Below are positions 3,068 through 12,799 of a DNA stretch of 14,580 bases, one piece after another. Made by a program: the position numbers and the translations under genes. Every line of letters starts with the position of its first letter. The first letter of the stretch is position 1. Source of the DNA: Bacteroidales bacterium UBA1204 (lineage in GTDB: Bacteria; Bacteroidota; Bacteroidia; Bacteroidales; F082); NCBI GenBank assembly GCA_002310075.1, contig DBXU01000172.1:1477-16056 (forward strand), read 5' to 3'. Under the pieces are notes generated by a model that saw only the letters and a program-made list of their open reading frames with translations, searched no databases and had not been told where the DNA came from.

Positions 3068-4231
3068 ATGGATAATATTGAAACGAACTTCGTTGAAGGT
3101 GATGTGAATAGCGTAGAAAAAGAAATAATTGGAAATGATCCAATTACCGTTCCTTTTGATCCAAATCTGATAAAAATACGAAGAGATCCTTTTACACTTG
3201 GTGAATTGATTGACAAAATAGAACATAATGAAGTGAATTTTAAGACCGCATTTCAACGTAAAAGTGATTTGTGGGATAAAACCCAACAAAGCAGGTTGAT
3301 AGAATCTGTTTTATTACGATTACCGTTACCTGCTTTTTATTTTGATGAAATAATTGAACATGAAGATGATCTAGAGAAACGCAAAACAATATGGCAAGTC
3401 ATAGATGGATTGCAAAGATGTAGTGCTTTCAATCATTTTATAGTGGAAAAAACATTTTCATTAGAAAACCTTGAGTTTCTAACTCAGTTTAATGGCAGAT
3501 TTTATGTAGACTTGCCGAGAGAATTGCAACGTCGTATTTCTCAAACTCCTATTACGGTTTATGTTGTTGAAAAAGGCACACCTGAAGAAGTTAAGTTTAA
3601 TATATTCAAACGCATCAATACTGGAGGTCTGATCCTTACACCTCAAGAGATAAGGCATGCGATGAACCAAGGAATTCCAGCGGATTTTGTGGCAGAATTG
3701 GCAGATTTGGTGGAATTCAAAGATGCTACATGTCATATTATTAAAACCGAACGCATGGAAGATAGGGATTTTGTTACGAGATATGTTTCGTTCTATCTTC
3801 AAGACTATAATGCTTATCAACCTGATTTGGATAGTTTTATGAACAAGGGAATGAGCAAGATTAAGTCGTTGTCTGATTTTGAACGTGTGGAAATGAAGTC
3901 CCGGTTTATTAAATCCATGCAAACAGCAATAAAACTGTTTGGTGATGATGCGTTTAGGAAACGGACGAATATTTATGATAGAAGAAAGCCTATTAATAAG
4001 GCTTTGTTTGAAGTTCAAAGTGTAATCTATGCAAAGATGGAAGAACCACAGTTGCGATTACTTATAAGTAAGAAGCAGGTTTATAATCAAAAGTTTATTG
4101 AACTGAATAACGATGAGAAGTTTAGATATGCCATTTCTTCTGGTACAGGACAAAGAGAAAGTGTAATTAGAAGATTTTCTGAGATGAAACGAATTGTAGA
4201 AGAAACAATTGAAGAAAGAATAATGATATGA
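3068..4231 (+). CDS. DUF262 (GmrS-N/ParB-like) protein, first gene of putative defence cassette
   Basis: 387 residues. DUF262 is known from the type IV restriction enzymes GmrSD and BrxU and from many defence loci, where it binds or hydrolyses nucleotides and takes part in DNA recognition or cleavage. Seen here: FQRKSDLW (62-69, the QR...W signature), QSRLIESVLLRLPLPAFYF (74-92), VIDGLQR (111-117, equivalent of the DGQQR catalytic motif), FKRINTGG (180-187), LTPQEIRHAM (190-199) and MEDRDFVTRYVSFYL (230-244). The C-terminus has no HNH (DUF1524) nuclease motif, so unlike GmrSD this is a DUF262-only protein. Start chosen at 3068, preceded by AAGAAAG. Its final codons overlap the next ATG by 4 bases, so translation is probably coupled. 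Codon use is AT-rich compared with the leuS and fucosidase genes. Role inferred: sensor or regulator of the downstream ATPase and effector. Confidence 0.88.
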   Translation: MDNIETNFVEGDVNSVEKEIIGNDPITVPFDPNLIKIRRDPFTLGELIDKIEHNEVNFKTAFQRKSDLWDKTQQSRLIESVLLRLPLPAFYFDEIIEHEDDLEKRKTIWQVIDGLQRCSAFNHFIVEKTFSLENLEFLTQFNGRFYVDLPRELQRRISQTPITVYVVEKGTPEEVKFNIFKRINTGGLILTPQEIRHAMNQGIPADFVAELADLVEFKDATCHIIKTERMEDRDFVTRYVSFYLQDYNAYQPDLDSFMNKGMSKIKSLSDFERVEMKSRFIKSMQTAIKLFGDDAFRKRTNIYDRRKPINKALFEVQSVIYAKMEEPQLRLLISKKQVYNQKFIELNNDEKFRYAISSGTGQRESVIRRFSEMKRIVEETIEERIMI

Positions 4232-5367
4232 TTACAAATTTTTATATTGAGAATTTCAAGATTCATAAAAGCACCAATTTGAATCTTAAAAACTTGAATG
4301 TATTAACAGGCCAAAATAGTAGCGGCAAATCATCGATTATTCAAATGCTTTTGTTGCTGAGACAGAGTTATTTGAAAGGCGAATTGGCAAATGGGCTTCA
4401 GTTACAGGGCGATTTGTGTAATGTCGGGTTAGTTTCTGACGCCGTGTGTAAGTATGCTAATGAAGACATCGTGAAAACAGGCTTTGTTGAGGATAATATG
4501 CGGTTTAATTGGGGGTTTTCGCAAAAAAGCAATAGTATTTTTCAGGATATGATTCCTGCTGATGAGAATAATGTTGCGGTTGGTGATGCCATACCTGTCC
4601 TCTTTTCAAGTGACTTTCAATATATAAGTGCTTCCAGGTGGTGTCCACATGAGTCATACCCACTTAATACGAGTGCAGTTGAAATAAAGAAACAAATATC
4701 TAGCGAACTAGGTCTGTGTGATTTGGTTCCGCATTATTTGTATTATTATGGCAAAGAGAAGAAGTTGATAATAAATAAGGAATTAAAACATGATGGAACA
4801 GATTCTCTTGATTTGATAGATCAGGTTTCTGCATGGGAAAATGTTATCAGCAAAGGAGTAAATGTTATTCCACAAAGGGAAGGCAAAGCATTTGTATTGA
4901 AGTATTCGTTTAATAAGCCCAATGATTTCGTATCGTCAGACGAGTTTAATGCGACAAATGTCGGATATGGATTAAGTTATGCCCTTCCGATAATAGTGGC
5001 ATTACTTACAGCCTCTGCCAATAGCCTAATTATAATTGAAAATCCAGAGATACATTTGCATCCTCACGGCCAGTCTGAATTGGCCAAATTGATTGCAAGA
5101 ACTGCCCAAACGGGTGTTCAAATTATTGTTGAAACCCATAGCGATCATATTATTAATGGAATCTTAGTTGCCACAAAGCAATTTGAAAGTGAGGGGAAAG
5201 GAGTGGATTGTAATAGGGTTCAATTGTTTAATTGCAAAAAGAATGACGATGTTCAGACCGCAGAAGTAACTCCAATAAATATCATTGGAGATGGGAAGAT
5301 AGATGTTCAGCCAGAAGGCTTCTTCGATCAGACGGAAAAAGACTTGAGTTATCTACTAGGATTTTAG
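4228..5367 (+). CDS. AAA/ABC-type ATPase with DUF3696-like C-terminus, second gene of cassette
   Basis: 379 residues, SMC/RecF-like head ATPase of the AAA_15/AAA_21 kind common in antiphage systems. Motifs: N-terminal FYIENFKIHKSTNLNL (5-20), Walker A GQNSSGKSS (28-36), Q-loop region IIQMLLLLRQ (37-46), signature-like NVGYGLSYALP (244-254), Walker B with IIIENPEIHLHP (268-279), Glu274 being the likely catalytic residue, and H-loop VETHSDHIING (301-311). The end, DGKIDVQPEGFFDQ (355-368), is the pattern I associate with DUF3696. No TOPRIM domain follows, so it is not an OLD-family nuclease such as GajA. Starts in an ATGA overlap with the DUF262 gene and is followed after 4 bases by the effector candidate. 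Inferred role: energy-dependent switch or scaffold that responds to a trigger and releases the third protein. Confidence 0.9.
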   Translation: MITNFYIENFKIHKSTNLNLKNLNVLTGQNSSGKSSIIQMLLLLRQSYLKGELANGLQLQGDLCNVGLVSDAVCKYANEDIVKTGFVEDNMRFNWGFSQKSNSIFQDMIPADENNVAVGDAIPVLFSSDFQYISASRWCPHESYPLNTSAVEIKKQISSELGLCDLVPHYLYYYGKEKKLIINKELKHDGTDSLDLIDQVSAWENVISKGVNVIPQREGKAFVLKYSFNKPNDFVSSDEFNATNVGYGLSYALPIIVALLTASANSLIIIENPEIHLHPHGQSELAKLIARTAQTGVQIIVETHSDHIINGILVATKQFESEGKGVDCNRVQLFNCKKNDDVQTAEVTPINIIGDGKIDVQPEGFFDQTEKDLSYLLGF

Positions 5368-5371
5368 CATT

Positions 5372-6169
5372 ATGGAGTATTTGAATGTCTTTTTGCTGTT
5401 TCCTGCAACTGATGAAGAAATACTTGCATTGGGCGAAGACTACAACAATTATTCGAGTGTTCCCCAAGATTTGGCACTAATAAAATCTCTATTGCCAAAT
5501 GGTTGCTATAAGTTTTTCTATGATTCTGAAAACATTGCTGCATTTTGCAATAAGGCAAGTCAATTATGTAGTGATGTGTATTTGTATAAATTAAAGGAGC
5601 AATTATTAAACTTGTTGAGAAAGAATGCGATAAATGTATCAAAACAGCCATTACATAAGTTTGATCGTTGCTATTATCAATGGGATGGAATGAATGCTTC
5701 GATTTGTATAAGAAACGATAGTCTCTTTAAATCTGCTGCTGAATGTAATGAGAAAACAATAGTGATTTCGTTTTTGTATCAAGATTCATGGCATCGTGGC
5801 ATTGTACCCATACTGATTGATGCTCTTCATTATCAGAATTTACCAGCTTTATCGAATATTCCATATTTTAACCCAATTGGCACTTTTGTTGAGTGGTATA
5901 ACAACCATGGGCCTAACAGTTTTTTTTACCTATCTGATACGAGTAGATTTGAAAGAACATGTTGGGTAAGGAGAGAGTCGAAACAACGCATATACAAGGA
6001 AATAGAAACTGATAGGTATTGGTATTATGATTTTTTCCATAAAGATAACAGCGAACATTATGAAGTGTTTGACTCTGTGGGAAACCACATTGGGGAGGCT
6101 GATTGTAATGGGATTATAGATGAATCTAAAAAAGATAATAACAAATCTATAAGAAACATTCTTCGATAA
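5372..6169 (+). CDS. Putative effector with C-terminal colicin E3-like ribonuclease domain, third gene of cassette
   Basis: 265 residues, no signal peptide or membrane segment, so cytoplasmic. Residues 1-200 match no family I recognise (mixed alpha/beta, with FFYDSENIAAFCNKASQL at 48-65). The last about 65 residues align by eye with the cytotoxic domain of colicin E3, which cuts 16S rRNA in the decoding centre. A basic run VRRESKQRIYKE (199-210) precedes RYWYYDFFH (215-223), matching the E3 segment IYEWDSQH. Asp220 and His223 fall on E3 Asp510 and His513. Glu231 in HYEVF fits Glu517 after a four-residue insertion. GNHIGEAD (237-244) matches GQHLGSFD, and Lys258 in DNNKSI stands where E3 has Arg545. 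Four bases separate it from the ATPase stop. No small acidic immunity gene is adjacent; the ATPase/DUF262 partners may restrain it. Gene certain, ribonuclease call moderate. Confidence 0.82.
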   Translation: MEYLNVFLLFPATDEEILALGEDYNNYSSVPQDLALIKSLLPNGCYKFFYDSENIAAFCNKASQLCSDVYLYKLKEQLLNLLRKNAINVSKQPLHKFDRCYYQWDGMNASICIRNDSLFKSAAECNEKTIVISFLYQDSWHRGIVPILIDALHYQNLPALSNIPYFNPIGTFVEWYNNHGPNSFFYLSDTSRFERTCWVRRESKQRIYKEIETDRYWYYDFFHKDNSEHYEVFDSVGNHIGEADCNGIIDESKKDNNKSIRNILR

Positions 6170-6216
6170 AGCTACAATGTAGTATCATGTACAATCTTGA
6201 TAGGATAGAGGGCGTC

Positions 6217-6250
6217 TTGATGCAATTCCCATTGTTCCATATGGCATCAA
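6217..6250. repeat. 7-bp inverted repeat after the cassette
   Basis: TTGATGC (6217-6223) and GCATCAA (6244-6250) form a perfect 7-bp stem around a 20-base loop in the gap between the convergent cassette and the exported-protein gene. No T run follows on either strand, so it is a weak terminator candidate at best. Nothing else recognisable lies in 6170-6355. Confidence 0.25.
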
Positions 6251-6355
6251 ATATAAGTATTATCTATGAACTATAGCTATTATGCAAAAAGCTCAAAGAA
6301 TAATACCTATTTCTTCATCTTTTTTAGGGTGTTTTCTGTATAAAGTAAAGATGCT

Positions 6356-6808
6356 TTATTGCGAGTTCCCCTGCTTTTGTTGTTTGTCTTCAAGCCAGTT
6401 CAAGTATCTTTTTATGTGTAGTATTCCTAAAGTATATGAACCTGCAGTATAAGATATTTTTCCAGAGTTGTAGAAATAAATATATCCATGGTCGCTATGA
6501 ACAAAACAACGATAACCCGAAATGGTGTATTCGCCACCCTCATCAAACAAAGACAGCATGTCTTTTAAAGACTTGATGGCTTTCTTTTCTGTTCCAAGAC
6601 TAATCCACACGGTTTTATCTTCAAACTCATTGTCGCTATGGATGTTAATAGCGTATGATTTGCTTTGGGTGTCGTAAACGAATTCAAAAAAGTTCTCGAT
6701 AGGATGTTCATAGCGTTGCTTGTGTTTTGTGATGCTTACTTGTGCTTGCGATTCTATTCCAACAAAACACATCACTATGAGAAATGCTTTAATTGCTATC
6801 GCTTTCAT
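6356..6808 (-). CDS. Small exported protein of unknown function
   Basis: 150 residues from the chosen ATG at 6808; an in-frame ATG at 6844 would add 12 residues (MSKYSIISNARK). The inner start is preferred because it gives a clean Sec signal peptide: MKAIAIKAFLIVMCFVGIESQAQ, cleaved after about residue 23. No lipobox, so periplasmic or secreted. The mature part is beta-rich by eye (FFEFVYDTQSKSYAINIH, YTISGYRCFVHSDHGYIYFY) with a helical end, LGILHIKRYLNWLEDKQQKQ. I do not recognise the family. It shares the AT-rich composition of the cassette and converges on it, so it may have arrived with it, but there is no functional link in the sequence. Confidence 0.7.
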   Translation of the reverse strand: MKAIAIKAFLIVMCFVGIESQAQVSITKHKQRYEHPIENFFEFVYDTQSKSYAINIHSDNEFEDKTVWISLGTEKKAIKSLKDMLSLFDEGGEYTISGYRCFVHSDHGYIYFYNSGKISYTAGSYTLGILHIKRYLNWLEDKQQKQGNSQ

Positions 6809-6890
6809 TTTTCTCGCATTTGAAATAATAGAATACTTGCTCATCCCCTCGTTGATCCTCGCAATATTAGATGCCGTTTGGGTCGGAAGA

Positions 6891-7091
6891 TTATTCCTGT
6901 TCCATCAGTGCTCTGACTTCCTTGGCTTTCACGGTGTAGATGTTGCCATCAGCATCGCAGAAGCAGAAGGTGCCGTTGTGGCGGCAACGCATGGTAAGCA
7001 AGCGCTGCATCGAGAGGTCGAGGCCGCTCATCAATTTCTTGGTGAAGGACGAAACTTCATTCTTCTTGGCATTCACTGTTACTGTTGTCAT
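6891..7091 (-). CDS. Small protein overlapping the zeta-like kinase gene; antitoxin candidate
   Basis: 66 residues from ATG at 7091 (MTTVTVNAKKNEVSS...RALMEQE). The frame extends to an ATG at 7157, but that would lie deep within the kinase gene; the inner start leaves a 35-base overlap with the kinase 3' end, a normal arrangement for coupled genes. N-terminal half is helical and basic (SSFTKKLMSGLDLSMQRLL), followed by RCRHNGTFCFCDADGNIYTVKAKEVRALM, a short beta-hairpin plus helix. No family recognised. Position and size make it the natural partner of the kinase, but the order (toxin-like gene first) differs from classical epsilon-zeta operons. Confidence 0.6.
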   Translation of the reverse strand: MTTVTVNAKKNEVSSFTKKLMSGLDLSMQRLLTMRCRHNGTFCFCDADGNIYTVKAKEVRALMEQE

Positions 7092-7650
7092 ATTGTCTGA
7101 TCTTTTTGAATTTTTCTTCGTTATAAAACTTAATGGATTTGATGTTACCTTCGGCAATCACTTCAGAGGGCATGATGCTGTTGTCGATGAACAGGAAGTA
7201 GTCAACGACGGGGCAGTAAAGATGAAACAAGTTCTTGATGCCTGCTCTGTAGCGTCTGCGGATGATACTGTCGTCCACATGATGACCGCCGTGCTTCACT
7301 CGCTCTGCCACGCGCTGGATGGCCAGGTCGGGGCTCTGCAGCCAGAAGTAGATGAGGCTGGCTTTATAGCCTTCCTGACGGGCTTTGTTGATGAGGGCGT
7401 GGTAGGATTTGGCGGCCAAGGTGGTTTCGATGGCAAAGTCTTCTTTGTCATTGATAAGTTTTTTGATGCGCGACAACATCAGACGACCTGCGGCGACCTT
7501 GGCACCGTCAGGGTTGAGCGGCGACAAGCCCTTGGCAATCTCGTCGCAGTTGACAAACTCCTTGCACTGCAACGTCTCGGGCAACACGGTCAAAGAAGCC
7601 GTTGTTTTTCCTGCTCCATTACAACCTGATATGATATACAGATTCGGCAT
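7057..7650 (-). CDS. Zeta-toxin-like P-loop kinase
   Basis: 197 residues from ATG at 7650. The frame continues upstream to 7797, but that stretch contains the predicted promoter and is not conserved-looking, whereas MPNLYIISGCNGAGKTT is the usual N-terminus of this family. Motifs: Walker A GCNGAGKTT (9-17), FVNCDEIAKGLSPLNPD (32-48) with Asp36 as the probable catalytic base, FAIETTL (72-78), YFWLQSPDLAIQRVAERVKHGG (101-122, lid region) and IIRRRYRAGIKNLF (129-142). Classical zeta toxins phosphorylate UDP-N-acetylglucosamine and poison peptidoglycan synthesis; many chromosomal relatives, including this compact type, have no proven substrate, so toxicity is inference. The gene is followed by the overlapping 66-codon gene and preceded by a promoter box and a tandem 10-bp repeat. 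Base composition matches the flanks, not the AT-rich island. Confidence 0.85.
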   Translation of the reverse strand: MPNLYIISGCNGAGKTTASLTVLPETLQCKEFVNCDEIAKGLSPLNPDGAKVAAGRLMLSRIKKLINDKEDFAIETTLAAKSYHALINKARQEGYKASLIYFWLQSPDLAIQRVAERVKHGGHHVDDSIIRRRYRAGIKNLFHLYCPVVDYFLFIDNSIMPSEVIAEGNIKSIKFYNEEKFKKIRQYDNSNSECQEE

Positions 7651-7705
7651 CAAAAAATAAATTTCTCTCGTTTTGTTTCTGCCAATAGTATGCCAGAACA
7701 CGCCG

Positions 7706-7734
7706 CAAAAATACAAAAATTGTGAATATGTCAA
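7706..7734 (-). promoter_or_regulatory. Putative promoter of the zeta-like kinase pair
   Basis: Minus-strand TATTTTTG (7713-7706) fits the TAnnTTTG -7 box, with GTTG (7735-7732) about 18 bases upstream as a -33 candidate. This lies 56 bases before the chosen ATG at 7650, which supports that start over 7797. Confidence 0.45.
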
Positions 7735-7753
7735 CACTTTTCCACACTTTTCC
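7734..7753. repeat. Tandem 10-bp repeat next to kinase promoter
   Basis: ACACTTTTCC occurs twice head-to-tail (7734-7743 and 7744-7753), exactly one helical turn apart, touching the predicted -33 element of the kinase promoter. Such phasing suits a regulator binding two sites on one DNA face, as in autoregulated toxin-antitoxin operons, but binding is only inferred. Confidence 0.45.
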
Positions 7754-7862
7754 ACGATATTTTTTTGTTGGAAAATCGCTAATCTCTTGAAAAACAAACA
7801 AATCGATCTCCTGACAAAAACTGAGGCGGTTTTCTCGAAAAGTTGTATTTTTACAGCCTAAA

Positions 7863-8420
7863 ATGATTAGGATGAAAATAAGGAATCTGTCATTGTTGCT
7901 TCTGCTTTCTTTGGTGATCGTTTCCTGTATGGGAAAAGTGGAATATCCTATCGAGCCAAGGATCGCTTATGAAGGTTTTACGTATCTGTTCAATGCCGAC
8001 AGCACTTTCAGCGGAGAAGGCATCATAGCCTTTTCCTATACCGATGGTGACGGTGACCTTGGCCTTGACGATAGTGATACACTACCGCCTTTCGGTTTTC
8101 ACGATGCCCATTATTACAACATGATCATCGACTATATGAAATATGTCGATGGTGAGTTCGTCAAGACACCCCTCTTAAGTTGGAATGTGCAGACCCAGTC
8201 CTATGATACGGTTTCATTCGATGCCCGATTCAAGCGACTTCGTGATTCTGATGAACCGAAAGCCATATCAGGACGAATGTTAAATACAGTTCCGGTGCAA
8301 AATCCATTCTCCCCGAACGACACCATCAAGTTTGAAATACATATTCTCGATCGCGCCTTGCATGAGAGTAACGTGATCCAAACTGACCCGATTTTCACCA
8401 ACCCTATCTTGAAGAATTAA
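7863..8420 (+). CDS. Lipoprotein of unknown function, first gene of M1 peptidase operon
   Basis: 185 residues; ATG at 7863, with an alternative in-frame ATG at 7872 (MKIRNLSL) giving an equally good signal. Lipoprotein signal: hydrophobic LLLLLSLVIVSC with acylated Cys22, so anchored in the inner or outer membrane. The mature part contains FSYTDGDGDLGLDDSD (57-72), an Asp/Gly-rich calcium-binding-like loop common in Bacteroidota lipoproteins, then DAHYYNMIIDYM, and ends with IHILDRALHESNVIQTDPI. No enzyme motif. The next gene starts 11 bases downstream, so it is probably co-transcribed with the secreted peptidase. TATTTTTA at 7846-7853 is a near-match to the -7 box. Confidence 0.8.
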   Translation: MIRMKIRNLSLLLLLSLVIVSCMGKVEYPIEPRIAYEGFTYLFNADSTFSGEGIIAFSYTDGDGDLGLDDSDTLPPFGFHDAHYYNMIIDYMKYVDGEFVKTPLLSWNVQTQSYDTVSFDARFKRLRDSDEPKAISGRMLNTVPVQNPFSPNDTIKFEIHILDRALHESNVIQTDPIFTNPILKN

Positions 8421-8431
8421 TACTTATAAAT

Positions 8432-10747
8432 ATGAAACGTCTTTTCTTATTCTTGGTAGTATTGCTGGCCTTTGCCACTGCACAAGCACAAACCGCAGGT
8501 GAAGGTATTAATGTGACGCACTATGAAATCCATGTTTGGGATTTCGACTTCGCCAACTGCACGTTGCAGGGCGAGACCTTCATCGATTTCACCACCACTG
8601 CGAGCATAAATGCCGTTGTGTTGGAGCTGAAAAGCCTTACCGTTACCGATGTGGCCTCCGATTTATACGGTGTGGATAGCTTTGGTCAGGAGGGCGACTT
8701 TTTGACCGTCACCTTCGACGAACCGATTGGAGCAGGCGTGAGTGTCACCCTCGACGTGCGCTATGGCGGCTCCCCCTTCAGCGAGACATGGGGCGGTGTG
8801 GAATGGTGGCGTCCTACTCCTAATAGCATCCCTGATCGTGTCTACAATCTCGGCGTGGGCTTCGACAGTCAGCCACACAATTTGGGTAAGACTTGGTTTC
8901 CTTGTGTAGATAACTTCACCGACAAGGCTACCTACGATGTCTTTGTCACCACGACCAATGACAAGAAGGCCATCTGCGGCGGTAACTTCGTAGAGACCAC
9001 CGACAATGGTAATGGCACCTCCACCTGGCATTGGAATACACCTCAGGAGATTGCCACCTACCACATCTCGTTTGCCGTGGGTGATTATGAGCTTTGGGAG
9101 GATGTCTATCATGGCATCGAGCGCGATATTCCCATCACAGTATATGCCAAACCAGGACAGATCAATAGCGTTCCAGCTTCGATGGTGCATATCAAGGAGA
9201 TTGCTGCTTTTTTTGAAGAGAGTATGGGCGCCTATCCGTTCAACCGTATCGGTTATGTGGTCACGGAAAAAGGTTGCATGGAACACACCGACAACATCGC
9301 CATCGTGCCCAGTGTCGTGAACGGCACGACCGACAACGAGGAATACATAGCCCACGAGCTTTCGCACATGTGGTCGGGCAATTTGGTGACTTGCGCCGAG
9401 GCGGGCGACATGTGGCTCAATGAGGGTTTTGCCCAGTTCTGGGGCGCGTTTTATGAGTCTGCGGTGTATGGAGAAGGACATTTTCAAAACACCATCTCGA
9501 ATAAGGTCAATACCATCAATGCTTGGTGCAACAATCCTAACAACTGGATGCCTCTTAACAATATGCCGCTTGACATGACTTATAACACCAATGCCATTTA
9601 TGAACGAGGTGCCGTCATCGTCAACACGTTGATGAACTACATGGGGCGTGAGAACTTCCTCTCTGCCATGCGCCAGTATTTCCAGCAATATGCCTATCAA
9701 ACTGCCACTTCGGAACTACTATGCGATGCTTTGACCCAGTATTCCGGCATTGATATGCATGGATTCTTCGACACCTACGTCTATGCTAGCGGTATGCCCC
9801 ATCTCTATGCTGTCATCGAATCGATTACACCGATGGGCAGTCAATACGAGGTGACACTCCATCTGAGCTACCAGCACATTGGCGACACGCATATCGGACA
9901 AAACAACAGGTACGACGTCACTTTTATCGGCCCTGATTTCCAGTTGGTCACCGAACAAGTCAATTGGGATGGCTTGCATAGTGATGTGACCCTTACGCTT
10001 GATTTCGAACCTGTCGGCATGGTCAACGACTTCAATAATAGCTGGCTCGATGGCAAGACCCAGAAAAACTTGATGTTGAGATCAACTGCGCAGCAAAATT
10101 TCGCTTACTTTACTGCCAAGGCCAACTCCATTACGGATTCGGTTTTTGTTAGCGTGGAAAACCATTTTATCGAGCCTTATGATGATCCTTTAGTGCCTTA
10201 TCTTACCCTTTCAACCAAGCATTTCTGGACCATTAATCGTTATGATTTCGGCGAGGCTGAGGTGGAGGGCTGGTTCGACTTCTCTAAAAACAACGATGGA
10301 GACATCATTCAAACCCAAAACGACTCGGCCACGTTGCTCTATCGCCGCAATGCTTCTGAAGCATGGCACGAGATTCCATACACACTTTATCCGGGCAGCT
10401 CATGGAAACAAGGTCGTTTTATGGTTGATAATCTCCTTTCGGGAGAGTATGTTGTCGCGTCTTGGGACAAGGAAGCTCTAGGAGTCGAAGAAGTGTTTGT
10501 GGAAGAACAAAAGATGCGTGTATATCCCAATCCTGCAGATAGGCAAGTGAATCTCCATTGGGCGAAAGCCTCTGATGGCATGGTGTTATTATATGATATG
10601 AAAGGGAATCTGCTTAAGCAGGAGGAGTATTCAGGCACAGACCATGTCGTACTTGTTGTGGAAGGTTTGGCATCAGGCAGTTATATCATCAAGCGCATCG
10701 ACAAGGGAGGCGCGGCTGTTGAATCGGAAACAATCATCATAAAATAA
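8432..10747 (+). CDS. Secreted M1-family metallopeptidase with type IX secretion sorting domain
   Basis: 771 residues. Zinc-dependent aminopeptidase-like enzyme. Signal peptide 1-20 (MKRLFLFLVVLLAFATAQAQ). An M1 N-terminal beta domain (about 24-235) is followed by the catalytic domain: GCMEH (281-285) in place of GxMEN, HELSH (308-312) and NEGFAQFW (330-337), where His308, His312 and Glu331 form the HExxH-X18-E zinc site with Glu309 as base. Tyr390 in AIYERGA is the likely transition-state Tyr. Residues 455-680 are beta-rich. The end (about 693-771) is a Por/type A sorting domain: KMRVYPNPADRQVNLHW, LYDMKGNLLKQ, LASGSYIIKR. This routes the protein across the outer membrane through T9SS to the surface or medium. 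It sits between two lipoprotein genes with 11- and 6-base gaps. The His in the exopeptidase motif may alter N-terminus recognition. Confidence 0.95.
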   Translation: MKRLFLFLVVLLAFATAQAQTAGEGINVTHYEIHVWDFDFANCTLQGETFIDFTTTASINAVVLELKSLTVTDVASDLYGVDSFGQEGDFLTVTFDEPIGAGVSVTLDVRYGGSPFSETWGGVEWWRPTPNSIPDRVYNLGVGFDSQPHNLGKTWFPCVDNFTDKATYDVFVTTTNDKKAICGGNFVETTDNGNGTSTWHWNTPQEIATYHISFAVGDYELWEDVYHGIERDIPITVYAKPGQINSVPASMVHIKEIAAFFEESMGAYPFNRIGYVVTEKGCMEHTDNIAIVPSVVNGTTDNEEYIAHELSHMWSGNLVTCAEAGDMWLNEGFAQFWGAFYESAVYGEGHFQNTISNKVNTINAWCNNPNNWMPLNNMPLDMTYNTNAIYERGAVIVNTLMNYMGRENFLSAMRQYFQQYAYQTATSELLCDALTQYSGIDMHGFFDTYVYASGMPHLYAVIESITPMGSQYEVTLHLSYQHIGDTHIGQNNRYDVTFIGPDFQLVTEQVNWDGLHSDVTLTLDFEPVGMVNDFNNSWLDGKTQKNLMLRSTAQQNFAYFTAKANSITDSVFVSVENHFIEPYDDPLVPYLTLSTKHFWTINRYDFGEAEVEGWFDFSKNNDGDIIQTQNDSATLLYRRNASEAWHEIPYTLYPGSSWKQGRFMVDNLLSGEYVVASWDKEALGVEEVFVEEQKMRVYPNPADRQVNLHWAKASDGMVLLYDMKGNLLKQEEYSGTDHVVLVVEGLASGSYIIKRIDKGGAAVESETIIIK

Positions 10748-10753
10748 AGAATC

Positions 10754-11290
10754 ATGAAAAAAACCTTTCAATTGTGCGTGTTGCTTTTTATGGTGGCAAC
10801 ACTTTTGAGCTCTTGCAAAGAAGATAAGAAAGAGTGGAGTTATATGTATGGCTATAATAGGGAAGATGTGTTGGGCAACTATACATTTTCCAATATTCCT
10901 AAGGCATTTGATGGATTGGAGGAAAACGTCTACTGTCATATTTGCGATTCTGCCATGGTTAGCATTACCAGCTCAGGGGAGAAAAGCATTTTGTTCGAGT
11001 TGAACAGCCCTTCGGATAACGTGTTTAGAGTTTTTAACGGGCTTCCTTCGCTTACGCCTAATGACTTTATGATCGATATGTTGGGTAGTTGGACATCTCT
11101 TTCCAGCAGCCGTTTGAGAAGGAACTCTGTAACTGCCTATGTCTATAAGAACGACAAGGACGATCGACGTTTGAGTGGCTTTGTAGCGGAGAACTATTGG
11201 AAAGTCATCACTTACCCTGACTCTGACGACAAAGATACGATCTTTGATTACAGCATCAAGTATCATTTTGATGTAGTCAGAGACAGGTAA
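10754..11290 (+). CDS. Lipoprotein of unknown function, last gene of M1 peptidase operon
   Basis: 178 residues starting 6 bases after the peptidase stop. Signal peptide with lipobox LLSSC, acylated Cys21, followed by KEDKKEW, a charged stretch reminiscent of the lipoprotein export signals that send Bacteroidota lipoproteins to the cell surface (inference). The mature part is beta-rich by eye (VLGNYTFSNI, AMVSITSSGEKSILFEL, TAYVYKNDKDDRRLSGFVAENYWKVITYP) and ends in IKYHFDVVRDR; it resembles small Bacteroidota lipocalin/calycin-like lipoproteins, though I cannot name a family. The stop TAA at 11288-11290 directly abuts the stop of the convergent kinase gene. Confidence 0.78.
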   Translation: MKKTFQLCVLLFMVATLLSSCKEDKKEWSYMYGYNREDVLGNYTFSNIPKAFDGLEENVYCHICDSAMVSITSSGEKSILFELNSPSDNVFRVFNGLPSLTPNDFMIDMLGSWTSLSSSRLRRNSVTAYVYKNDKDDRRLSGFVAENYWKVITYPDSDDKDTIFDYSIKYHFDVVRDR

Positions 11291-12799
11291 TTATTTCTTC
11301 AGTGTGATGCGGAAAGTGGTGCCTTGTCCTACCACCGATGACTTTACGGCAATTTTTCCTTTGTGGTAGTCTTCGATGATACGTTTGGCTAATGAAAGAC
11401 CAAGACCCCAGCCACGTTTCTTACTTGTGAATCCAGGGTTGAACACCTGCTTGAGTTGTGATTTTGGGATGCCTTTACCCGTATCACTCAAGTCAATATG
11501 GACATGGTCGCCATCATCAATGAGGTCGAGGGTGATTTTACCATGGTCGCCCATGGCATCGACAGCATTTTTAGTTAGGTTCTCAAGCACCCAACGGAAT
11601 AGCGAAGGGATCAAAGGCATCGTCAGTTCTCCCTCTGGCAGGTTGATTTCAAACTCAAACTTCTTGGAGAACCGTTTCTGCAAGTAGTCCATCGTGTCTT
11701 GGATAAGGTAAACCATGTCGGTGGGCTCAGGCACTGGCACAGAACCGATCTTCGAGAAACGGTCTGTGACAATTTGGAGGCGCTCAATGTCCTTTTCCAT
11801 CTCATGAGTGCCTGCAAAAGGTTCTTCTTGCATTTTCAGTAGTTCAATCCAACCCATAAGCGAGGAAAGAGGCGTGCCTAGTTGGTGTGCGGTTTCCTTG
11901 GCCATACCAGCCCATACCTGATTCTGCTCCGAACGGCGGGCATAGCTGAAAAGGAGATAAGCGATCAGTAGGAATAGAGCAAATACAACAAACTGGATGA
12001 CGGGGTAGTAGCGCATCTGTTGCACCAAGTCAGTGGTGCGGTAGAAGATGCTGGCCTTGCCCTTGTTCATGAACTCAATCTGAAGAGGGTCGTTCTCGTC
12101 ACGCATGATGGCAAGTTGCTGTTTTACGTAGTTTGTGTCTTGCATCAATAGTGAATCGAGATTGCCGAAACTTAGAATTTGTGTCTGGTCTTCGTTGGTC
12201 ACGATGACAGGTACGCCCATCGAATTGAGAGTGATTTCTTCCATGAAATGGTCTGACATGTCTTCCAAGACGGCCTTTAAGTCGGTGTAGATACGCGACT
12301 CGTTGTAGTAAAGCCATTGCACGGTTCCGTAGCCAGGATCTATCTTGATTGGGGGGAATTTGGAATATGCTTGTTGCATCTCTGAGTCGAAGGTGGTTTT
12401 CCCTTCCTGCTCGGATGGCAGGTTGGCTTTCGACATGATGTTGCCTTCGCTGTCGGTGAGGATCAATGGAATGCTGATATTCTTACGTATGATGTCCAGA
12501 TAGACCGCGGTATTCTCATTGGTAGAGATGTCAATGACACGACGGTAGGCATTAGCCAATAGTTCGACACGCAGCTGCTCCTGCTCGCTCACCTTGTTGA
12601 AGAACTCTTCAGTGGACTTCATCATCACGGCGTGCTGTTCCATGGCAGCAGCCCACATCCTTACCTGTTTGACTTCTTGCTCGGCAATGGATTTCACTAG
12701 GTGGTTGGTGTACCATAACGATACACCTATAATGAGAAGGGCAATGACAGCCAAAGCCCATTTCCATCGCTTTTTGTTCGTATATAGGTTCGTTTTCAT
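11291..12799 (-). CDS. Membrane sensor histidine kinase
   Basis: 502 residues. Two membrane segments (about 14-32 and 266-286) enclose a periplasmic sensor region of about 230 residues with a coiled-coil start (KSIAEQEVKQVRMWAAAMEQHA) and a PAS/Cache-like part (IPLILTDSEGNIMSKANLP, GVPVIVTNEDQTQILSFG). There is no obvious HAMP; the second segment runs almost directly into the H box AKETAHQLGTPLSSLMGWIELL (300-321), with phosphoacceptor His305. The ATPase domain has N box ENLTKNAVDAM (406-416), G1 DTGKGIP (439-445) and G2 GWGLGLSLAKRI (463-474). All key residues are present, so it should be active. No response regulator is visible in the window. It starts 30 bases after rpoN on the same strand, suggesting co-transcription; the partner could be a distant NtrC-type activator, but that is inference. 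Confidence 0.94.
   Translation of the reverse strand: MKTNLYTNKKRWKWALAVIALLIIGVSLWYTNHLVKSIAEQEVKQVRMWAAAMEQHAVMMKSTEEFFNKVSEQEQLRVELLANAYRRVIDISTNENTAVYLDIIRKNISIPLILTDSEGNIMSKANLPSEQEGKTTFDSEMQQAYSKFPPIKIDPGYGTVQWLYYNESRIYTDLKAVLEDMSDHFMEEITLNSMGVPVIVTNEDQTQILSFGNLDSLLMQDTNYVKQQLAIMRDENDPLQIEFMNKGKASIFYRTTDLVQQMRYYPVIQFVVFALFLLIAYLLFSYARRSEQNQVWAGMAKETAHQLGTPLSSLMGWIELLKMQEEPFAGTHEMEKDIERLQIVTDRFSKIGSVPVPEPTDMVYLIQDTMDYLQKRFSKKFEFEINLPEGELTMPLIPSLFRWVLENLTKNAVDAMGDHGKITLDLIDDGDHVHIDLSDTGKGIPKSQLKQVFNPGFTSKKRGWGLGLSLAKRIIEDYHKGKIAVKSSVVGQGTTFRITLKK

Follow-up and report, generated by a model that had tools for sequence, protein, structure and literature searches.

A Menshen locus of Bacteroidales bacterium UBA1204 with a predicted colicin E3-like ribonuclease effector

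A compact gene trio lies at positions 3068 to 6169 of a 14,580-nucleotide stretch of the Bacteroidales bacterium UBA1204 genome (contig DBXU01000172.1, positions 1,477 to 16,056; hereafter the window). We think it probable that this trio is a form of the anti-phage system Menshen in which a colicin E3-like ribonuclease, controlled by the partner proteins NsnA and NsnB, serves in defense by cutting 16S ribosomal RNA (rRNA). Judged by its protein families, the trio itself is almost certainly Menshen (nsnA-nsnB-nsnC), a system reportedly introduced by Millman et al. in 2022. The features at issue are the following.

3068..4231, + strand: gene 1, nsnA, 387 amino acids
4228..5367, + strand: gene 2, nsnB, 379 amino acids
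5372..6169, + strand: gene 3, nsnC, the effector, 265 amino acids
5372..5884, + strand: N-terminal domain of NsnC, approximately residues 1-171, possibly of PIN-like fold
5885..6166, + strand: predicted C-terminal colicin E3-like ribonuclease domain of NsnC, approximately residues 172-265, with Asp220, His223, Glu231, and Lys258

Such a reading would tie a Menshen effector to a well-understood enzyme, so that the mechanism of Menshen could be tested directly at a single rRNA cut site and through a handful of catalytic residues. A further suggestion is that phage defense has recruited bacteriocin-type toxin domains as effectors that lack the usual immunity protein. What is gained is modest, since Menshen has already been described and so, to go by the title alone of a paper said to be by Li et al. 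(NAR, 2025), has its domain polymorphism. A search of the open-licence literature found nothing on an NsnC of E3 type or on Menshen located inside restriction-modification (R-M) operons.

Assignment to Menshen and conservation of the trio

The assignment is carried by PADLOC. Gene 1 matches the NsnA model PDLC03877 over residues 15-382 of 387 (6.4e-128), and gene 2 matches the NsnB model PDLC03878 over residues 1-377 of 379 (8.8e-99). Gene 3 matches two NsnC models, PDLC03889 (6.1e-24) and PDLC03893 (1.9e-18), though only at residues 185-264, its C-terminal 80. In Pfam, gene 1 contains GmrSD_N (DUF262; 1.2e-19), and gene 2 is an SMC/OLD-like ATPase with AAA_15 (4.6e-28), AAA_21, and, at its C-terminus, DUF3696 (8e-08), as a sequence-only reading of the window, made before any database was searched, had anticipated in proposing a DUF262 protein and a DUF3696-like ATPase. 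The Walker A motif of NsnB, GQNSSGKSS, occupies residues 28-36, and residues 112-117 of NsnA read I-D-G-L-Q-R, comparable with the (I/V)DGQQR motif given in an excerpt of a review (PMC10952713). Weaker PADLOC matches link gene 2 to HEC-03B (2.5e-35) and AriA (9.5e-31) and gene 1 to PD-T4-2_A (2.5e-30); PD-T4-2 also has a DUF262 first gene, but the match is far weaker than that to NsnA.

These matches support the proposal in the sequence-only reading of a possible defense system, since all three genes are homologs of a named one. That reading knew of no named system with this exact set and gave Menshen as one to be ruled out; the idea that none exists is not supported, and a new, unnamed system is rejected because PADLOC assigns all three genes to Menshen. 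An exact match to a named system, which that reading had set against its own proposal, is essentially what we found, the shortfall being that gene 3 matches the NsnC models over its C-terminal third only. Like Menshen, the trio is a compact, co-directional set of these three families, with nsnC directly downstream as at related loci; it differs in an N-terminal NsnC half that is of another or a strongly diverged type. The layout is as first read from the sequence, with the three open reading frames (ORFs) at the coordinates above, nsnA and nsnB overlapping by ATGA at 4228-4231, and 4 bases (5368-5371) between nsnB and nsnC. The trio is also AT-rich, as had been noted: GC content is 33.8% in nsnA, 36.8% in nsnB, and 33.5% in nsnC, whereas the two ORFs on the left side have 51-53% and the six measured from 6940 on have 41-51%.

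An NsnC profile search of genome contigs recovered six loci (L001-L006), of which L001 is closely related to L002; a single-sequence scan of the same contigs confirmed no locus, and no nsnC copy was confirmed in viral contigs. At 6/6 of these loci nsnA and nsnB stand directly upstream of nsnC, all six genomes having an NsnA match, and the same order recurs at a divergent seventh locus, L083. The trio thus forms a conserved unit, which the sequence-only reading had named as support for its proposal. Two wider searches scored the first few candidates per genome, so their counts are lower bounds. The gene-3 profile matched at least three of 393 genomes of one order, two of them already known (G003 and G006) and the third (G616) being the source of L083. 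Across a sample of the phylum, NsnA (E <= 1e-60) was found in at least 30 of 395 genomes, at 35 places, 18 of which have an nsnB homolog followed by a third ORF. The remaining places comprise one with a shortened nsnB match (L054), one with no nsnB (L067), one near a contig end (L068), and 14 (L069-L082) without nsnB. At 13 of these 14, a co-directional ORF of 153-347 amino acids directly follows the DUF262 gene; some of these ORFs look HEPN-like by eye.

The third genes vary. Only L003, on which the search was centered, is of E3 type among the 18. PADLOC matched 14 of 15 third genes scanned to NsnC models, the exception being that of L058. The scanned set is 14 of the other 17 plus L083, and leaves out L065, which is nearly identical to L064, and L050 and L059, which equal L049 and L058 in length. 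The third gene of L051 (4338-5195) joins an NsnC-type N-terminal part to a C-terminal YoeB domain (Pfam 5.4e-16). The swapping of third genes between loci that the sequence-only reading had looked for is therefore present, and because the third genes differ between loci that keep nsnA and nsnB, NsnC is, on these matches, a modular effector of which the E3 type is a minority in the phylum sample.

The NsnC effector and its control

The C-terminal part of NsnC probably carries an E3-like ribonuclease domain. Its last 93 residues have the predicted fold of the colicin E3 rRNase domain (1jch, 1e44, 4v5k). When models of the window NsnC and of the divergent L083 protein were built separately, colicin E3 appeared within the first five structure-match rows of each, and the CdiA-CT toxin of Enterobacter cloacae (4ntq), a 16S rRNase, appeared lower in both lists. 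Colicin E3 has Asp510, His513, and Glu517, together with Arg545. The candidate catalytic residues Asp220, His223, and Glu231 of NsnC fit the E3 order Asp-x-x-His ... Glu, and Lys258 would stand for Arg545. We counted these residues in 27 rows, made up of the window protein and 26 relatives out of 28 NsnC homologs (P0028 was left out and P0001 was not aligned). Asp220, His223, His229, and Glu242 are invariant in all 27, whereas position 231 has Glu in 26 rows and Asp in the other, and position 258 has Lys in 26 rows and Arg in the other. A His/Glu/Asp triad is described for colicin E3 in an excerpt of PMC2615495.

Other searches gave this assignment no support. Gene 3 has no Pfam domain, and the Pfam family PF09000 matched neither the whole NsnC at E 0.1 nor its C-terminal fragment at E 10. 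Neither phmmer nor profile searches of the PDB with NsnC returned an E3 chain, and Foldseek gave no match for NsnC below E 0.001. A broader PF09000 search was uninformative, as it matched none of the 7 related genomes and none of the 14 controls. Proof of E3 kinship from sequence was thus sought in Pfam and the PDB and dropped. The E3 claim rests on VIA-align and residue conservation because the sequence searches and Foldseek gave no E3 match. The description of the third protein as colicin E3-like, made at the outset, is accordingly supported by the predicted fold in two NsnC models and the conserved Asp, His, and Glu, but not by the Pfam and PDB sequence searches.

The N-terminal half, possibly of PIN-like fold, keeps acidic residues at positions 14, 15, and 16 (26/27 rows each), 22 (25/27), and 150 (27/27), and Asp138 is Asp in 20/27. 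Five well-kept acidic positions might mean that this half does the cutting or acts as a second nuclease, which we regard as improbable. A domain shared with other NsnC proteins was sought for this half and dropped, as hmmsearch and hhalign gave no clear signal against the 15 third genes. Only the N-terminal part of the L006 protein has a weak match to PDLC03909 (7.3e-07).

To look for an immunity gene, 246 flanking ORFs of at least 35 amino acids at the seven E3-type loci were compared by BLASTP. Nothing was common to the deeper loci apart from fragments of a Mod gene, present in L003 and L004. The matches linked the window, L001, and L002, whose flanks are shared, and also L003 with L004, from the methyltransferase gene; two further matches between loci were marginal (E 0.004-0.005). 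L001 and L002 end about 0.4 kilobases downstream of the trio, and a fast-changing immunity gene could be missed. The absence of an immunity gene remarked on in the sequence-only reading holds to this extent, and since no conserved one was found, the natural inference is that control lies with NsnA and NsnB or with the N-terminal half of NsnC itself. In this respect NsnC would differ from the toxins that it resembles. Like colicin E3, it has the predicted C-terminal fold, Asp, His, and Glu as conserved residues, and a basic residue close to its C-terminus, but it is short, with no room for receptor-binding and translocation domains, has no PF09000 match and no conserved immunity-like neighbor that could be found, and is presumably cytosolic under the control of NsnA and NsnB. 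CdiA-CT of E. cloacae differs in being delivered between cells and in having the CdiI immunity protein.

Proposed mechanism and its alternatives

From these observations we infer a sequence of sensing, control and release by NsnA and NsnB, attack on rRNA, and a defensive outcome. NsnA, a DUF262 nucleotide-binding sensor, and the ATPase NsnB would keep NsnC inactive; on sensing infection, they would release or activate it. The E3-like domain would then cut 16S rRNA in the decoding center, translation would stop, and the infected cell would be lost before phage are made. With regard to the substrate, we lean toward 16S rRNA as the NsnC target. A more ambitious picture is rather speculative: an E3-type rRNase acting as a purely intracellular immune effector that has no immunity protein, its antitoxin and trigger being NsnA and NsnB themselves, the rRNase cassette having been joined to at least two sequence-dissimilar NsnC N-terminal parts, and the trio serving in some genomes as a guard inside an R-M operon.

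The alternative that we rate highest concerns the substrate. The domain may be a ribonuclease of the wider BECR fold group that cuts tRNA or mRNA rather than 16S rRNA, since BECR toxins cut many RNAs and the third gene of another Menshen locus, L051, carries the domain of YoeB, a ribosome-dependent mRNase. Yet the specific PDB matches of the domain, colicin E3 and CdiA-CT, are both 16S rRNases and came up in two separate models, and the Asp-x-x-His ... Glu set is conserved in NsnC, so that we hold this reading to be distinctly less probable, at about one chance in four. Very unlikely, in our judgment, is a selfish, toxin-antitoxin-like stabilization module with no role against phage. A toxin-like effector in AT-rich, perhaps acquired DNA would suit such a module, but the homology to Menshen argues against it, as does the statement, in an excerpt of the review cited above (PMC10952713), that phage resistance was abolished when the DUF262 genes of Menshen and Dazbog were mutated or deleted.

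A third possibility arises from the genomic position of some trios, which might guard a neighboring R-M enzyme as PrrC does and be triggered by phage anti-restriction proteins. In L004 (Alistipes muris, 3692-11451) the E3-type trio is flanked by the Mod and Res genes of a type III system, the gaps being 3 and 1 nucleotides, in a PrrC-like arrangement. A co-directional R-M or BREX-type gene lies within 450 nucleotides of 9 of 25 trios (L004, L050, L052, L056, L057, L059, L060, L062, and L083), these 25 being the window, L001-L006, 17 further loci of the phylum sample, and L083, not all of them independent; the upstream ORF of L002 and a 130-amino-acid ORF in L006 are left out of the count. According to an excerpt of PMC2610378, a linked type I R-M enzyme keeps PrrC silent, and T4 Stp activates it. 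The window trio, however, has no R-M neighbor, and none was found beside L001, L005, or L006. Furthermore, 3 of 12 DUF262 loci without nsnB (L076, L078, and L082; the 12 are the 14 described above minus L070 and L073, with an 81-amino-acid neighbor in L074 left out) also adjoin R-M genes. Position in R-M operons is thus common but not special to Menshen, because the rate is much the same at DUF262 loci that lack nsnB, and it may be mere defense-island clustering; we consider a guard role improbable. Menshen and PrrC/RloC do share ATPase motifs and a translation-disabling ribonuclease, and some Menshen loci are found within R-M operons, PrrC likewise being linked to such an operon, but the nuclease and its target are different, PrrC/RloC is one protein where Menshen has three, and the window lacks the R-M neighbor. 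In L003, pieces resembling the type III Mod of L004 lie just upstream of nsnA (5010-5521), as though the trio were surrounded by the remains of a decayed R-M operon.

Genomic surroundings

In the window, the genes adjoining the trio are an antisense alpha-L-fucosidase gene, named by Pfam, and an antisense 162-amino-acid ORF (6356-6844); no R-M gene is there. With a GC content of 35.8%, this ORF belongs to the same AT-rich block as the trio, and it matches nothing in Pfam or PADLOC. Further right, Pfam identifies an M1 peptidase, which contains a secretion sorting domain, and a histidine kinase. This sorting domain and the relatives recovered by the searches point to a Bacteroidales genome. A look for integration repeats gave none that was convincing. 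A downstream gene of 229 amino acids (window 6940-7629) is common to L001 (9048-9230) and L002 (5495-5653), whose copies are 85-94% identical to that of the window over the part covered. The upstream flanks differ: the window has the fucosidase gene, whereas L001 has a gene for an outer membrane efflux protein and L002 a gene 92% identical to that of L001.
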